Shown here piece by piece: positions 5,349 to 58,128 of a stretch of 64,000 nt of DNA. The translations under genes and the position numbers were made by a program. Where the stretch lies: NCBI GenBank assembly GCA_018004935.1, contig JAGNBF010000001.1, positions 62,001-126,000 on the forward strand. Reading direction: 5' to 3'. Each line of letters opens with the position of its first letter. Position 1 is the stretch's first letter. Origin of the DNA: Chloroflexota bacterium (lineage in GTDB: Bacteria > Chloroflexota > Anaerolineae > Promineifilales > Promineifilaceae). The notes beneath the pieces are model-generated. The model searched no databases. It worked only from the letters and a program-made list of their open reading frames with translations, and was not told where the DNA came from.

Positions 5349-5909
5349 ATGGCAAAACCCAAATTCTCTATTGCCCACAAAGATGAAGAAATGTTGGCAC
5401 TTGTGAGCAAGACGGATCAAAAAACATTGGCACTTTGGGCGATTGATTGTGCCGAGCGTGTTATGCCCTTTTTTGAGGAAAAATATCCTCAAGATAATCG
5501 CCCACGCCAGGCTCTTAACACGTTACAAACCTGGCTGGATACAGGGGTCTTCAAGATGGCGGTGATTCGTAAGGCATCGTTGGATGCTCACGCGGCCGCA
5601 CGTGATGTGGGTGAAGACAGCCCCGCTCGTTCTGCCGCCCGTGCCGCTGGTCAGGCGGTAGCCACGGCCCATGTTGCCCGCCATGCTTATGGCCCAGCCA
5701 TTTATGCCCAACAAGCGATCCATAGAGCCAGCACCCCCGCCGAAGCGGATGCGGCCGCGGCCCAAGAACGGGATTGGCAATATCAACAGCTACTGGCTCG
5801 CCAGGGGATGGATGAAAACAGCGAGGGGGCGAGTAGCGAGGGGGCGAGTAGGGACTTGAAACCTGAAACTCAAAACTTTGAACTCGAAACTCGAAACTTA
5901 TTTTCGTAG
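5349..5909 (+). CDS. Imm5-like putative immunity protein with repeat-derived tail
   Basis: 186 aa. The core (residues 1-150) has the alanine-rich helical pattern of Imm5-like proteins: LALWAIDCAERVMPFFEEK, then AHAAARD, then ARAAGQAVATAHVARHA. No toxin gene is adjacent, so an immunity role is only a family label. The last 30 residues (from NSEGASSEGAS on) are low complexity and come from repeated DNA (GAGGGGCGAGTAGC twice, then GAAACTC words), suggesting the original stop was lost into intergenic repeat. Confidence 0.6.
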   Translation: MAKPKFSIAHKDEEMLALVSKTDQKTLALWAIDCAERVMPFFEEKYPQDNRPRQALNTLQTWLDTGVFKMAVIRKASLDAHAAARDVGEDSPARSAARAAGQAVATAHVARHAYGPAIYAQQAIHRASTPAEADAAAAQERDWQYQQLLARQGMDENSEGASSEGASRDLKPETQNFELETRNLFS

Positions 5910-5953
5910 GAGTTCCCCATGGGCCTTTGGCGCACCAAGAGGGATGAAAATTT

Positions 5954-53370: not shown

Positions 53371-54580
53371 TATGACCAACAGATCCACACCGCCACTCTT
53401 TTCTATGGATAGCCGGGTGCAATTACGTCCATTATCGCAACAGATTGAAAATGGCGTCGCCATTATTGGTTATGGCGACCGTTTTTTAGAGTTACCGCTG
53501 GAGGGATTGCAGTTTATCACCTGGCTTAACCAGGGACTCTCCCTGGGTGAAGCACGACAACAGTTTGAAGCCCAATTTAACCCGTTCCCAGAAGCCGACC
53601 TGCTTGATGTGATGCAAGCCTTTCTCAAAAATGACTTTGTGGCCGCTGTAGATGGTCTGCCTCTCAATGCCTCTTCTGCACCCATTACCCAGACTCCATC
53701 TCGCATCCCCCAACATTGGGCCGAACGCCTCTGGTCAAAACCCGTCCTGATTGCCTGGATGCTCTTTGTTACCCCCGTTTCTCTCCTCTGGCTCTTCACC
53801 CCCGATTTATGGCCCCAACGCAGTGACTATTTCTGGCTCGATTTTTACTTCCTCATCATTCTGATTGGGCAATTGTTGTGGCTGGAAGATATGTCTACCC
53901 ATGAGGTGGCTCATTGGCTGGCGGCCAGGGCCAAAGGCATTCACGCCACCATTTCCTGGACGCAACGGTTGGGCGTCTTTCCCATGAGCCAGACAACGAT
54001 GCACAACATTTGGGCCGTGCCCCGGCAGGCGCGTTATTTGCCGCTGGCGGCGGGTATGGTGCTGGACATCGCCAAAGGGAGTGTAGTGCTGTACCTGCTT
54101 TTCCTGGATCGTTGGGGTTGGGTGCAGTTGCCTGCTCTGGCTCTGGCTTTTTTGCGCTACTACCTGCTCAAAAACACGTTGGCTCTGGTGGCTCAATTCT
54201 GGCTTTTTTCGCGCATGGATGGTTATTTTCTGCTGTCGGCGCTGTTGGGTCAGCGCAATTTGCAGGCGGATACGTTTACCTGGTTCAAGAGTAAATTCAA
54301 CCACTGGATTAAATTTGAGCCACCGGCCGGTGGCATGAAATTTGTGTACCTTTATGCGGTTATTTCAGTACTGGGGGGTGGTTTTGTGTTGAGCCAGTTT
54401 TTTCTTTATTCTGTGCCGATCCGGGTGCAGTTGATTTGGGATTCATGGCAGAAAGTGACCGCGGCCGCGCCCTCATCGCTCGATTATGCGGATGGGGTGG
54501 CGGCGTTGGTCAGCCAGGGGTTGTATGTGGGGCTGTTGGTGTATGCCCATTGGCGGGACCGGGCCAGTCGGCGGAAGTAG
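53371..54580 (+). CDS. M50-type membrane metalloprotease with N-terminal PqqD-like domain
   Basis: About 402 aa. Residues ~15-95 look like a PqqD-type RiPP-recognition domain (IENGVAIIGYGDRFLELPLE, then LGEARQQFEAQF and LKNDFVAAVDG). The membrane part contains HExxH as STHEVAHWLAA near 190 and the partner motif SRMDGYFLLSALLG near 290, the hallmarks of M50/peptide zinc metalloproteases, plus about six hydrophobic segments. Such fusions export or process ribosomal peptide natural products. Its likely substrates are the tiny peptides encoded 455 bp downstream. The start follows a GCAAACAGGT region; ATG 53407 is an alternative. Confidence 0.8.
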
Positions 54581-54701: not shown

Positions 54702-54807
54702 TGTAACTATTCAGGTGGCACTTTTGCCAGAGAGACCCTAAAGGTTTTGATTAACATGAGGCCAGAATCACCAGAGGTCAAAACCTTTAGGGTCTGAATA
54801 GTTACAA
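54702..54807. repeat. Nested palindrome, about 106 bp
   Basis: Outer arms TGTAACTATTCAG / CTGAATAGTTACA (54702-54714, 54795-54807) enclose perfect 17-bp arms GACCCTAAAGGTTTTGA / TCAAAACCTTTAGGGTC (54734-54750, 54778-54794). The outer arm occurs singly at 28738. A MITE-like or structured element. Confidence 0.8.
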
Positions 54808-54988: not shown

Positions 54989-55034
54989 TTAAAACTTACC
55001 CAGGTTTGTTCATCATTCTACAAGGAGGTGCCCC

Positions 55035-55091
55035 GTGAAAGTTAAACCAGTTGAAACAGTGCAACCCACCGCCCAATTAAGCAACATTTAG
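55035..55091 (+). CDS. 18-aa peptide gene 1 (MKVKPVETVQPTAQLSNI)
   Basis: GTG start with AAGGAGGTG 5-13 bases upstream, the strongest ribosome site in the region; stop TAG. It is first of three near-identical micro-ORFs. Differences among the three are confined to residues 5 and 13-17. Substitutions are mostly at third codon positions (GTT/GTC/GTG, CAA/CAA, ACA/ACC/ACT), which is expected for real coding selection. Function unknown: a ribosomal peptide precursor is the best guess, given the PqqD-M50 protease upstream. Confidence 0.75.
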   Translation: MKVKPVETVQPTAQLSNI

Positions 55092-55101
55092 GAGTTCCAT
55101 C

Positions 55102-55158
55102 GTGAAAGTCAAATCTGTCGAAACCGTCCAACCAACAGCCCAATTAGGCAGTATCTAG
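55102..55158 (+). CDS. 18-aa peptide gene 2 (MKVKSVETVQPTAQLGSI)
   Basis: GTG start. The TAG stop of gene 1 lies inside this gene's ribosome site (tAGGAGttccatc), so translation is coupled. Ten bases separate stop and start, the same as between genes 2 and 3. Confidence 0.75.
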   Translation: MKVKSVETVQPTAQLGSI

Positions 55159-55168
55159 GAGTTTCATC

Positions 55169-55225
55169 ATGAAAGTGAAAGAAGTCGAAACTGTCCAACC
55201 TACCGGCAAATTGAACAGTATTTAA
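55169..55225 (+). CDS. 18-aa peptide gene 3 (MKVKEVETVQPTGKLNSI)
   Basis: ATG start with tAGGAGtttcatc, again overlapping the stop of gene 2. TAA stop. Consensus of the set is MKVKxVETVQPTxxLxxI. The terminator begins 15 bp after the stop. Confidence 0.75.
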   Translation: MKVKEVETVQPTGKLNSI

Positions 55226-55239
55226 CCGTATTGTGGATC

Positions 55240-55280
55240 AAAAAACGCCTCGTTCTTTATCGAATGGGGCGTTTTTTATT
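55240..55280 (+). terminator. Rho-independent terminator of the peptide operon
   Basis: AAAAAACGCC (55240-55249) pairs with GGCGTTTTTT (55268-55277), with a loop that can pair further (TTC/GAA), followed by ATT. Directly after the third peptide stop. A separate CCTGACAG/CTGTCAGG hairpin at 55291-55330 lies between it and the PBP gene end and may terminate the latter. Confidence 0.9.
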
Positions 55281-55338
55281 CGGGTAGGAGAAGGGAAACC
55301 TGACAGATCTCAGAAGACCTGTCAGGTTTTTTTGATCC

Positions 55339-58128
55339 TTATGACGAAGGTTCAATTGTCAGCGTGATGGTGTGGGGTTCGCCGACGTAGTTACCGTCCC
55401 AGAGGATGACGATGAGGCGCAGAAAGTAGGTTCCGGCGGGCATGGCGTCGGCGTGGAGCATTTCTAGTGTGCCGTTGACGACTGGAGTGTTGTGCGTTTC
55501 GCCCAGTGTGACCCACTGCACATCGTTACCGTTGGGGATGCCTAGCTCCACTTTGTAGAATTGCACCTTTTGCGGATCAAAGTCGGCCGTGCCGATGATG
55601 GGCAAAATGCCAGTGACGGTTTCATCCTGGCGTGGGCTGGCGATGCGCCATACCGCCGGGGCATTGGGATCACGGGCCAGGGCCAGCATCTCATCGGTGC
55701 AGGTAGCGGTGGGCAAGATGAGAATGTTGTTGGCTTGTGCCCATTCGTGGGCGGATTTCAGGCTTTCCGGGTTGCGCGGCGGGGTGAGGAAGAGGGTCGC
55801 GGCCGCGTCCGGGGGCAGTAATGTCACCTCCGTCCCTTGCGTGAAATGGCAAAACAGTTGCGCTGGCGGCGCGTCCTCATCTGCCGTTTGCCCTATCAAC
55901 ACCTCGGCGGGCAAGGGGGGCAAGACGACGGCGGGCATACGCCACACCGCTGGTTCCACCTGTTCCCAGGCCACCAACGCGGCGTCTGGGGCGGGGGTGG
56001 GAATGGTGTTGCTGGCGGTCAGGAACCATTCCGAGCCGGAGCGCACACAATCCGTCGCTCCCACCGTCACCGAACTCAAATCACATAGCGGCCGCTCTTC
56101 CAGACCGGCGGGGGGTACAAACTCGCTGGGCGGTTGCGCCCCGTTGCTGGCTAACACCGCTACCAGTTCCGGGTTGGCGTACACCGCCTGGATATAGGTT
56201 GACCAGAGGGGAGCCGCCCCGGTCAGGCCACTCACATCAATCATTTCGCTGTTGTCGGTGTTGCCCGTCCAGACCCCCACGACGAAGCCGGGGGTGTACC
56301 CCATGGTCCAGTTGTCGCGGAAATCATTGGTGGTGCCGGTTTTCGCGGCCGCGGGGAAGGGCACATTCAACGGGTTGTCCCGCCCCATCGCCGGGATACG
56401 GGCCACGTCATCATCCAAAATGTCGCTGATGAGGAAAGCTACACGGGGATCAAGTACCGGTTGTGGCGCAGGGGTTTCGTAGTTGAACAACACCGTGCCA
56501 TCACTTTTTTCCACCCGCAGGATAGAAACGGGCGGAATGCGGTAGCCGCCATTGGCAAAGACGGAATAGGCCGAGGTCAATTCTAGTGGCGTCACATCGC
56601 CACCGCCGAGGGTTAGTGACAGGCCGTAGTTGTTGGGGTTGCTGTCCCAACTGGCGATACCCATTTGCCGGGCGAAGGTGAGGAAATCAGGAATGCCGAT
56701 ATCTTGCAGGAGTAGAATGGCCGGGATGTTGTAGCTGTTGGCCAGGGCTGTCCGCAGGCGCACCGGGCCATGAAAACGGCCATCGTAGTTGACGGGTGTG
56801 TATTCACTGCCATCGAATTGGGGATAATCTACCGGCACATCCCAGAGGATGTCGGCGGCGGACCAGACAGGTTGGCCGGTGGTGGGATCAGGGGAGAGCG
56901 CGGCCGCATACGTCAACGGTTTAATCGAGCTACCCGGCTGTTGCGGGGACAGGGCAATGTTCACGTGGCCGTCAATGGCTTCGTTCTGATAATCCACACT
57001 GCCCAACATGGCGATAATTTCCCCGGTTCCCGGCTTGAGGGCCACAATCGAGGCGTTAGTCAGGTTATTCGTCGCGGCCAAAGCGGCTACATGTTGCCGG
57101 GCGATATTCTCGGCCAACTCCTGGTAGCGTAAATCAATGGTCGTTGTCACGTTCAGGCCACCATTCGCCACCATCTCCGCGCCGTATTGTTGCTCTAACT
57201 GCTGGCGCACCCACACCGTAAAATGGGGGGCTTGCAGGCTGACTTCCTGCACGGCAAAGGTCAGCGGTGTCTGGTAGGCGGCTTCGGCGTCGGTCATGGT
57301 GATATATCCTTCATCCACCATCAGCATCAGCACCAGCCATTGCCGCTCTTTAGCCCCTTCCAGGTTGACGAGCGGGTCCAGGTCAATGGGGCTTTGGGGC
57401 AGGGCGGCCAACAATGATGTTTCGGCCAGGCTCAGTTCCGTGACCGATTTGCCGAAGTAGGTTTGTGCGGCCGCTTCCACCCCGTAGGCCAGATTGCCGT
57501 AATAAATCTCGTTCAGGTACATCTCCAGGATTTCGTCTTTGCTGTACTCCCGATTCATCAGCCAGGCCAGAACGATCTCCTTGATTTTGCGGTCATAACT
57601 GACTGTCACTCGTTCCTCATAATCGAAGGCGATGTGGCGCACAATCTGTTGGGTGATGGTACTCCCACCGACGGGTCGCCCTTCCGGGTCGCGCAGGTTG
57701 GCGATGAGGGCGGCGATGAGCGAAGGGGCGTCCAGGCCGATGTTTTCGTAGAAGGTGTCATCTTCCACAGAGATGGTGGCGTAAATGAGTTCTTGGGGAA
57801 TATCGGCGATGGCCACTTGGGTGCGGTTGCCTTCGCCGAAGATTTCCCAGAGGAGTTCCCCGTTGCGGTCGTAGATGCGGGTGGTTTGGAACGTTTCGCG
57901 GCCGCGGGCCTCAGCCAACGCCGTTATGCCCTCCTGTAACTCCGCCTCGTATCGGGCATACACCAGCGTGCCCGATACCAATAATCCCCCAATCCCCAGT
58001 AACAACCCTATAAGCAGAGAGAGCCAAAAAAAACGGCCTAAACAACTGCGTCGCTTGGGACCATTTTTATGACGCTTAAAGCGGACGGTTTCGGCTTCGA
58101 CGGGGGAAAAATCGGGTTGAGATGACAT
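55339..58128 (-). CDS. Class A penicillin-binding protein (transglycosylase/transpeptidase)
   Basis: 929 aa from ATG 58128 (GGAGTTACCATC before it). One N-terminal membrane helix (FFWLSLLIGLLLGIGGLLVS), GT51 glycosyltransferase with EDDTFYENIGLDAPS and GGSTITQQI near 140-190, then transpeptidase motifs PGSSIKPLTYAAAL (SxxK), NSYNIPA (SxN) and AAKTGTTNDFRDNW (KTG). A C-terminal Ig-like domain (residues ~830-929) is extra. Builds and cross-links peptidoglycan outside the membrane; so the organism has a murein wall, which fits some Chloroflexota lineages. The kinase gene is divergent. Confidence 0.94.
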   Translation of the reverse strand: MSSQPDFSPVEAETVRFKRHKNGPKRRSCLGRFFWLSLLIGLLLGIGGLLVSGTLVYARYEAELQEGITALAEARGRETFQTTRIYDRNGELLWEIFGEGNRTQVAIADIPQELIYATISVEDDTFYENIGLDAPSLIAALIANLRDPEGRPVGGSTITQQIVRHIAFDYEERVTVSYDRKIKEIVLAWLMNREYSKDEILEMYLNEIYYGNLAYGVEAAAQTYFGKSVTELSLAETSLLAALPQSPIDLDPLVNLEGAKERQWLVLMLMVDEGYITMTDAEAAYQTPLTFAVQEVSLQAPHFTVWVRQQLEQQYGAEMVANGGLNVTTTIDLRYQELAENIARQHVAALAATNNLTNASIVALKPGTGEIIAMLGSVDYQNEAIDGHVNIALSPQQPGSSIKPLTYAAALSPDPTTGQPVWSAADILWDVPVDYPQFDGSEYTPVNYDGRFHGPVRLRTALANSYNIPAILLLQDIGIPDFLTFARQMGIASWDSNPNNYGLSLTLGGGDVTPLELTSAYSVFANGGYRIPPVSILRVEKSDGTVLFNYETPAPQPVLDPRVAFLISDILDDDVARIPAMGRDNPLNVPFPAAAKTGTTNDFRDNWTMGYTPGFVVGVWTGNTDNSEMIDVSGLTGAAPLWSTYIQAVYANPELVAVLASNGAQPPSEFVPPAGLEERPLCDLSSVTVGATDCVRSGSEWFLTASNTIPTPAPDAALVAWEQVEPAVWRMPAVVLPPLPAEVLIGQTADEDAPPAQLFCHFTQGTEVTLLPPDAAATLFLTPPRNPESLKSAHEWAQANNILILPTATCTDEMLALARDPNAPAVWRIASPRQDETVTGILPIIGTADFDPQKVQFYKVELGIPNGNDVQWVTLGETHNTPVVNGTLEMLHADAMPAGTYFLRLIVILWDGNYVGEPHTITLTIEPSS

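Follow-up and report, generated by a model that had tools for sequence, protein, structure and literature searches.

Three tandem 18-residue peptide genes near a predicted RRE-site-2 protease gene in a Chloroflexota genome

Results

Layout of the locus

The window (the whole stretch of DNA analysed here) is a 64-kb part of a 190-kb contig from a genome of 8 Mb. It contains three short tandem open reading frames (ORFs) and, upstream of these, the gene of a candidate partner protease:

53372-54580, + strand: predicted fusion of an RRE (RiPP recognition element, PqqD-like) and a site-2 metalloprotease, 402 aa (alignment, AF2 model, domain matches)
54703-54805, no strand assigned: MITE-like inverted-repeat element, 103 bp, between the protease and peptide genes and outside the system; 28 genome matches
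55024-55029, + strand: ribosome-binding site of peptide 1, the GGAGGT region of AAGGAGGT
55035-55091, + strand: peptide 1, MKVKPVETVQPTAQLSNI; GTG start, 57 bp, 18 aa
55102-55158, + strand: peptide 2, MKVKSVETVQPTAQLGSI; GTG start, 57 bp, 18 aa; Shine-Dalgarno (SD) sequence AGGAG overlapping the peptide 1 stop
55169-55225, + strand: peptide 3, MKVKEVETVQPTGKLNSI; ATG start, 57 bp, 18 aa; SD AGGAG overlapping the peptide 2 stop
55240-55277, + strand: terminator hairpin with a 16-bp stem and A/T flanks, which may act both ways (z -5.8)
55296-55329, + strand: second terminator-like hairpin, then a T run (z -4.8)

An earlier note on this DNA had described three intact 57-bp ORFs with strong ribosome sites, equal 10-nt spacing and stop codons overlapping the following SD, and both coordinates and sequence confirm this. 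Peptide 1 is preceded by the SD sequence AAGGAGG, the ORFs are exactly 10 nt apart in both cases, and each internal AGGAG shares letters with the stop codon of the copy before it (tAGGAG). Behind the ORFs, where one terminator was said to follow at once, a terminator-like hairpin is indeed present, though two were found and not one. One or both could act for the convergent gene, which ends at 55339. Neither is listed by a consensus terminator scanner, and the T run of the first is paired within its stem. A promoter scan gave no forward candidates.

The gap of 454 nt between the protease gene and peptide 1 includes the MITE-like element, whose ends are terminal inverted repeats (GTAACTATTCAG...CTGAATAGTTAC). 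Since 18 of its 28 genome matches are near full length with 98-100% identity, the element seems to have moved recently. Because this 103-bp repeat lies in the gap, co-transcription of peptides and protease is uncertain, and the two may be transcribed apart. The recognisable genes nearby encode a glycerol-3-phosphate dehydrogenase-like FAD oxidoreductase, a GntR/FadR regulator, a penicillin-binding protein and a Ser/Thr kinase; none in the window locus was recognised as coding for a tailoring enzyme, a dedicated exporter or transporter, a receptor or an immunity protein. Elsewhere in the window (35251-35372) lies a tRNA-like gene (Rfam tRNA score 50) with an insertion of ~50 nt in the anticodon region; ARAGORN makes no tRNA call there, and it is either a pseudogene or an intron-bearing tRNA.

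Coding selection on the three copies

The differences between the copies had been called largely synonymous, and a codon substitution test proposed. Start and stop excluded, 7 of the 10 differing codons are synonymous between copies 1 and 2, 6 of 11 between copies 1 and 3, and 6 of 10 between copies 2 and 3; over the whole ORFs, third positions account for 9 of 12 differences between copies 1 and 2 and for 8 of 15 in each of the other pairs. Under random mutation of an equal number of sites, the probability of seeing this few amino-acid changes and no stop codon is 0.0004 (copies 1 and 2), 0.009 (1 and 3) and 0.0017 (2 and 3), these comparisons being non-independent. Amino-acid change thus lies below the random-mutation expectation throughout, in agreement with the proposal. 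An RNA element is unsupported, as shuffled versions of the peptide region fold at least as well (z +1.3), and no Rfam match was found there. Given the synonymous bias, the low amino-acid change and the unstructured RNA, the three ORFs are coding genes under selection. Together with the homologous peptides and profile ranks described below, the codon bias supports the view of the earlier note that these are real, selected small genes in a translational-coupling arrangement.

The partner protease

The next same-strand gene upstream of the peptides starts with the ATG at 53372, its frame being open already from 53303. The encoded protein has no match in Pfam or NCBIfam. Its HExxH (residues 177-181) and Asp283 are invariant among 12 homologues, as is Pro349. 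The AlphaFold2 model, based on a 12-sequence alignment, has a mean pLDDT of 77 and a pTM of 0.63. For residues 5-94 the top matches are PqqD (5sxy; Z 8.9, 2.5 A over 88) and leader-bound TbiB1 (5v1u; Z 8.9), and for this RRE part Foldseek gives a probability of 1.00 against 5v1v. Residues 112-352 match SpoIVFB (Z 8.3), RseP (7.8) and the M. jannaschii site-2 protease (S2P) mjS2P (5.9); as such Z values fall where helical proteins match by chance, motif and fold jointly carry the S2P assignment. Whole-chain Foldseek E-values exceed 0.1, which counts against the fold assignment, and the latter consequently rests on domain-level matches and motifs. As modelled, the protein is predicted to combine an N-terminal PqqD-like winged-helix RRE with an S2P fold carrying HExxH and the distal Asp, which would place it among the RRE-S2P proteins.

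Relatives of peptides and protease

Beside most RRE-S2P homologues we found peptides with the leader motif V[KR]x[VL]E[ST][VL]KT[ST]A. Homologous proteases with adjacent motif peptides occur in Micromonospora, Streptomyces, Saccharothrix, Actinokineospora, Herpetosiphon, Ktedonobacteria-like genomes and G151, a genome of the same family as the window. A profile from the window and G151 proteases retrieved twelve loci in public genomes, and a short motif ORF lies beside the protease in 12 of 12 (at L056 on re-inspection).

The closest protease (locus L050) is 57% identical to that of the window, and an 18-aa peptide, MKVKRVESVKTTGFGYDG, is encoded 56 nt downstream of it. According to the earlier note, conserved DNA with broken frames would indicate an RNA element; this close homologue, the only one found, has an intact frame and diverged codons. 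A further possible ORF of 17 aa (MWRFKKQTKYNIWVWDG, ~5866-5919) follows the L050 peptide; it also has a DG ending, and its ribosome site is weak. The G151 protease is 25-27% identical to that of the window and has as neighbours a C39-peptidase ABC exporter and a 195-aa protein that matches no family, as well as two peptides (...KKFAIREVETVKTTAALYSRACG...), in which the motif VETVkTtA corresponds to VETVQPTA of the window. At the contig end of this G151 cluster (L046:8952-9113) there is a small ORF of another kind, MSKNKTTKMEVTNALVELDAIQLEAVNGSKDRW..., with a GS-type leader-like sequence.

The four Micromonospora-type loci encode MKKLTVRRLESVKTSAVAAACVVS, Saccharothrix encodes MKKLVVRRLETVKTSAATSCSVVVA, and L115, from a later search, MKKLVVRKLEPIKTSANADCVPAAA. 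Herpetosiphon loci carry ~8-10 successive peptides with a constant leader, MKK[IL]xIRK[VAT]ETLKTTAAFYAGGC, and variable tails (for example GGPRPLP, GPIGPIRGGTLIP and DPSFPIGPILEN). In the branch of L116-L118, L125, L129 and L130 the peptides are of the MKKIxVRKAGxVRLTxxA type, and several of these loci have another conserved gene downstream. The claim that the peptides lack Cys and aromatics holds for the three window copies and fails for the family, where relatives often contain both.

In the window and at L050 the protease precedes the peptides; in the other loci the peptides come first. In the protease tree, window and L050 form a deep branch of their own (support 1.0) within a mainly peptide-linked group (0.93) that is separate from the ThiF group. 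Proteases of this sister clade are paired with a ThiF adenylyltransferase. A ThiF gene adjoins all three plasmid homologues inspected, two of them in the ThiF-linked clade and one (L171) elsewhere in the tree; altogether ThiF neighbours were noted for the RRE-S2P relatives of L119 and L169-L171. Two loci of the ThiF clade, L119 and L126, have an upstream peptide ...IETT...GNS, and MccB-like chemistry is possibly at work in the ThiF-linked loci. A Crp-like regulator directly adjoins the peptide-protease pair at L051 (9427-10185; cNMP_binding plus HTH_Crp_2), L058, L059 and L061, which are the four Micromonospora-type loci, and at L115.

Specificity of the motif

We searched 396 genomes of the class with a degenerate DNA pattern for K[VI]KxVE[ST]V[KQ][TP]T, allowing one mismatch. 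This gave 4 matches, namely the three window copies and one beside the L050 protease, against 0 in the reversed control. A peptide profile that excluded the window places the three window peptides at ranks 2, 3 and 4 among 1277 small window ORFs, with individual scores that are weak (E 0.03-0.5). Rank 1, ORF 1679, looks like chance, its best single stretch scoring below peptide 3. Among 52 genomes of the family, confident matches came from G151 and the window only, so the system is sporadic; weak profile matches in other members look like chance. Exact occurrences of the motif elsewhere in the class, such as ETVQPTGSF (G170, G135) and ETVQPTRAL (G138), are segments of ordinary long proteins, those of G170 and G135 being threonine-dehydratase-like by eye.

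Judged by this motif and its place beside an RRE-S2P homologue, the window peptides belong to an unnamed precursor family. A description of it was not found in the literature searched, the coverage of which is partial, so that this is not proof of novelty.

Discussion

A probable minimal precursor-protease system

Since an RRE-S2P gene lies 0.5 kb upstream, the three peptides are tied to a recurrent precursor-plus-protease system. The earlier note reasonably held that they are not a classic bacteriocin, but missed this partner. We consider it likely, with some reserve, that the ORFs encode the precursors in a minimal system of two components, and that these precursors are bound by the RRE and then cleaved by the co-encoded membrane protease. 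Coding selection, peptide family membership and the recurrent gene pairing support this reading, as do the predicted RRE-S2P architecture with its intact catalytic residues, the Herpetosiphon arrays, where the leader stays constant and the tails vary, and the precedent of daptides, in which one RRE-S2P fusion likewise goes with several precursors. Against it stand the near absence of a tail, the lack of a recognised modification enzyme, transporter, receptor or immunity gene next to the peptides, the 454-nt gap with its mobile element, the weak single-peptide profile scores and the whole-chain Foldseek E-values.

We infer the course of events, from RRE binding, cleavage, cut site and export to product and role, as follows. 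The ORFs would be translated into precursors whose alternating V-K-x-V-E-T-V-Q-P-T acts as a recognition leader, binding the RRE domain of the protease as a beta strand. A leader bound by an RRE adds a strand next to beta-3 (PMC7470986), and the alternating V-K-x-V-E-T-V pattern suits such strand addition. The site-2 protease domain would then cut the bound precursor at the membrane, releasing or exporting a very short C-terminal fragment of ~3-7 residues (xLxxI). The product is not obvious, because the window peptides are shorter than all others compared and hardly extend beyond the leader. Most likely it would be either a peptide signal or a small antimicrobial: the xLxxI tails are short enough for a signal, and an antimicrobial is possible.

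Comparison with known systems

Daptide leaders are removed by an RRE-dependent intramembrane peptidase, and several precursors are encoded per locus (PMC10036551). The likeness to MpaP with MpaA1-A3 (PMC10036551; NF041824) lies in the N-terminal RRE fused to an intramembrane site-2 protease and in having more than one short precursor ORF per locus, much like each other. At E 3.5e-11 the Micromonospora relative matches NF041824, although relatives score far below the 300-bit cut-off. Unlike daptides, the window peptides have no ELExMEAP leader and end in Ile, not in a C-terminal Thr; the cluster also lacks genes for DUF-RRE, alcohol dehydrogenase, decarboxylase, aminotransferase and methyltransferase. 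The window system is not a daptide.

Epipeptides require a radical SAM epimerase, whereas none was recognised at the window locus. The similarity is that an M50 membrane protease, EpeP/YydH, matures a ribosomal peptide (PMC10885120; NF058609); no match to NF058609 above its cut-off was found, one relative reaching E 0.11. Further M50/S2P-type enzymes maturing peptides are, besides EpeP, TglG/TmoG (PMC10885120) and TmcP (PMC13252029). In pearlins, the M50 protease TglG/TmoG acts on the C-terminal residue of a scaffold peptide (PMC10885120), and a leader-only window peptide would fit such a scaffold. The pearlin peptide-aminoacyl-tRNA ligase (LanB-like, PF04738) is silent in locus and genome, and in all control genomes as well. 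TmcP resembles the window protease as an S2P-clan protease removing a leader in the membrane (PMC13252029). It differs in being a DUF3267 protein, and the TMcin precursor has a transmembrane helix that the 18-aa window peptides lack. An NHLP/NHLM C39 exporter is absent from the cluster; C39 matches in G000 lie only in open frames of ~155 aa on other contigs, and the G151 C39-ABC protein scores below the NHLM cut-off.

The enterococcal Eep and streptococcal SHP systems comprise S2P-processed peptide pheromones that are very short and unmodified. They share with the window very short peptides, a membrane metalloprotease and no need for modification; yet a cognate receptor gene was not recognised beside the window locus and Eep is not known to have an RRE.

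Alternative readings

The peptides might instead be full RiPP precursors, modified by an enzyme encoded elsewhere before the RRE-S2P removes the leader. This is the less likely reading. RiPPs in the strict sense carry a post-translational modification that goes further than proteolysis. In favour of such precursors, RREs are a usual feature of RiPP pathways (PMC7470986), Cys, Gly, Pro and aromatic residues abound in the tails of relatives, a C39-type exporter ABC protein is present in addition at G151, and the protease sister clade adjoins ThiF adenylyltransferases. Nonetheless, no tailoring gene was recognised beside the window, L050 and Micromonospora pairs, and the window tails offer no Cys or aromatic target; Lant_dehydr_N also has no match in the genome, a weak argument given that the control is silent too.

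More doubtful still is that the peptides are short RRE ligands, and not substrates, which switch the protease on or off towards another target. The window peptides are almost entirely leader, as this would have it, and the Crp-like neighbours of the Micromonospora-type loci and L115 hint at a regulatory circuit in some hosts. However, the variable-tail arrays of Herpetosiphon look like substrates, and neither the window nor L050 has any match to Crp-like proteins. That the ORFs are remnants of a structured or regulatory repeat, in three copies that decayed yet happen to be open, would account for their similarity, constant spacing and the hairpins behind them, but is very improbable and already largely refuted by the synonymous bias, the unstructured and Rfam-silent repeat region, the conservation of homologues at the peptide level and the lack of a close downstream gene to regulate on the same strand.

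Significance

Peptides of 18 aa escape annotation, and both the window peptides and their protease are unnamed in Pfam and NCBIfam. The recurrence of the pair in distant bacteria indicates a pared-down precursor family without a name, whose members are recognised and probably cut in the membrane. Tentatively, and with the odds rather against it, one may picture a widespread class of ribosomal peptides in Chloroflexota and Actinomycetota, matured solely by RRE-guided intramembrane proteolysis, which releases unmodified signals or antimicrobials of 3-10 residues from loci ranging from two-gene cassettes to arrays of about ten precursors. The RRE-S2P together with the leader motif makes the peptides searchable across Anaerolineae, Herpetosiphon, Ktedonobacteria-like genomes and actinomycetes. 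Should a minimal cassette work in the absence of tailoring enzymes, this would demonstrate plain intramembrane cleavage under the guidance of an RRE, and RiPP leader recognition would be linked to peptide signalling.
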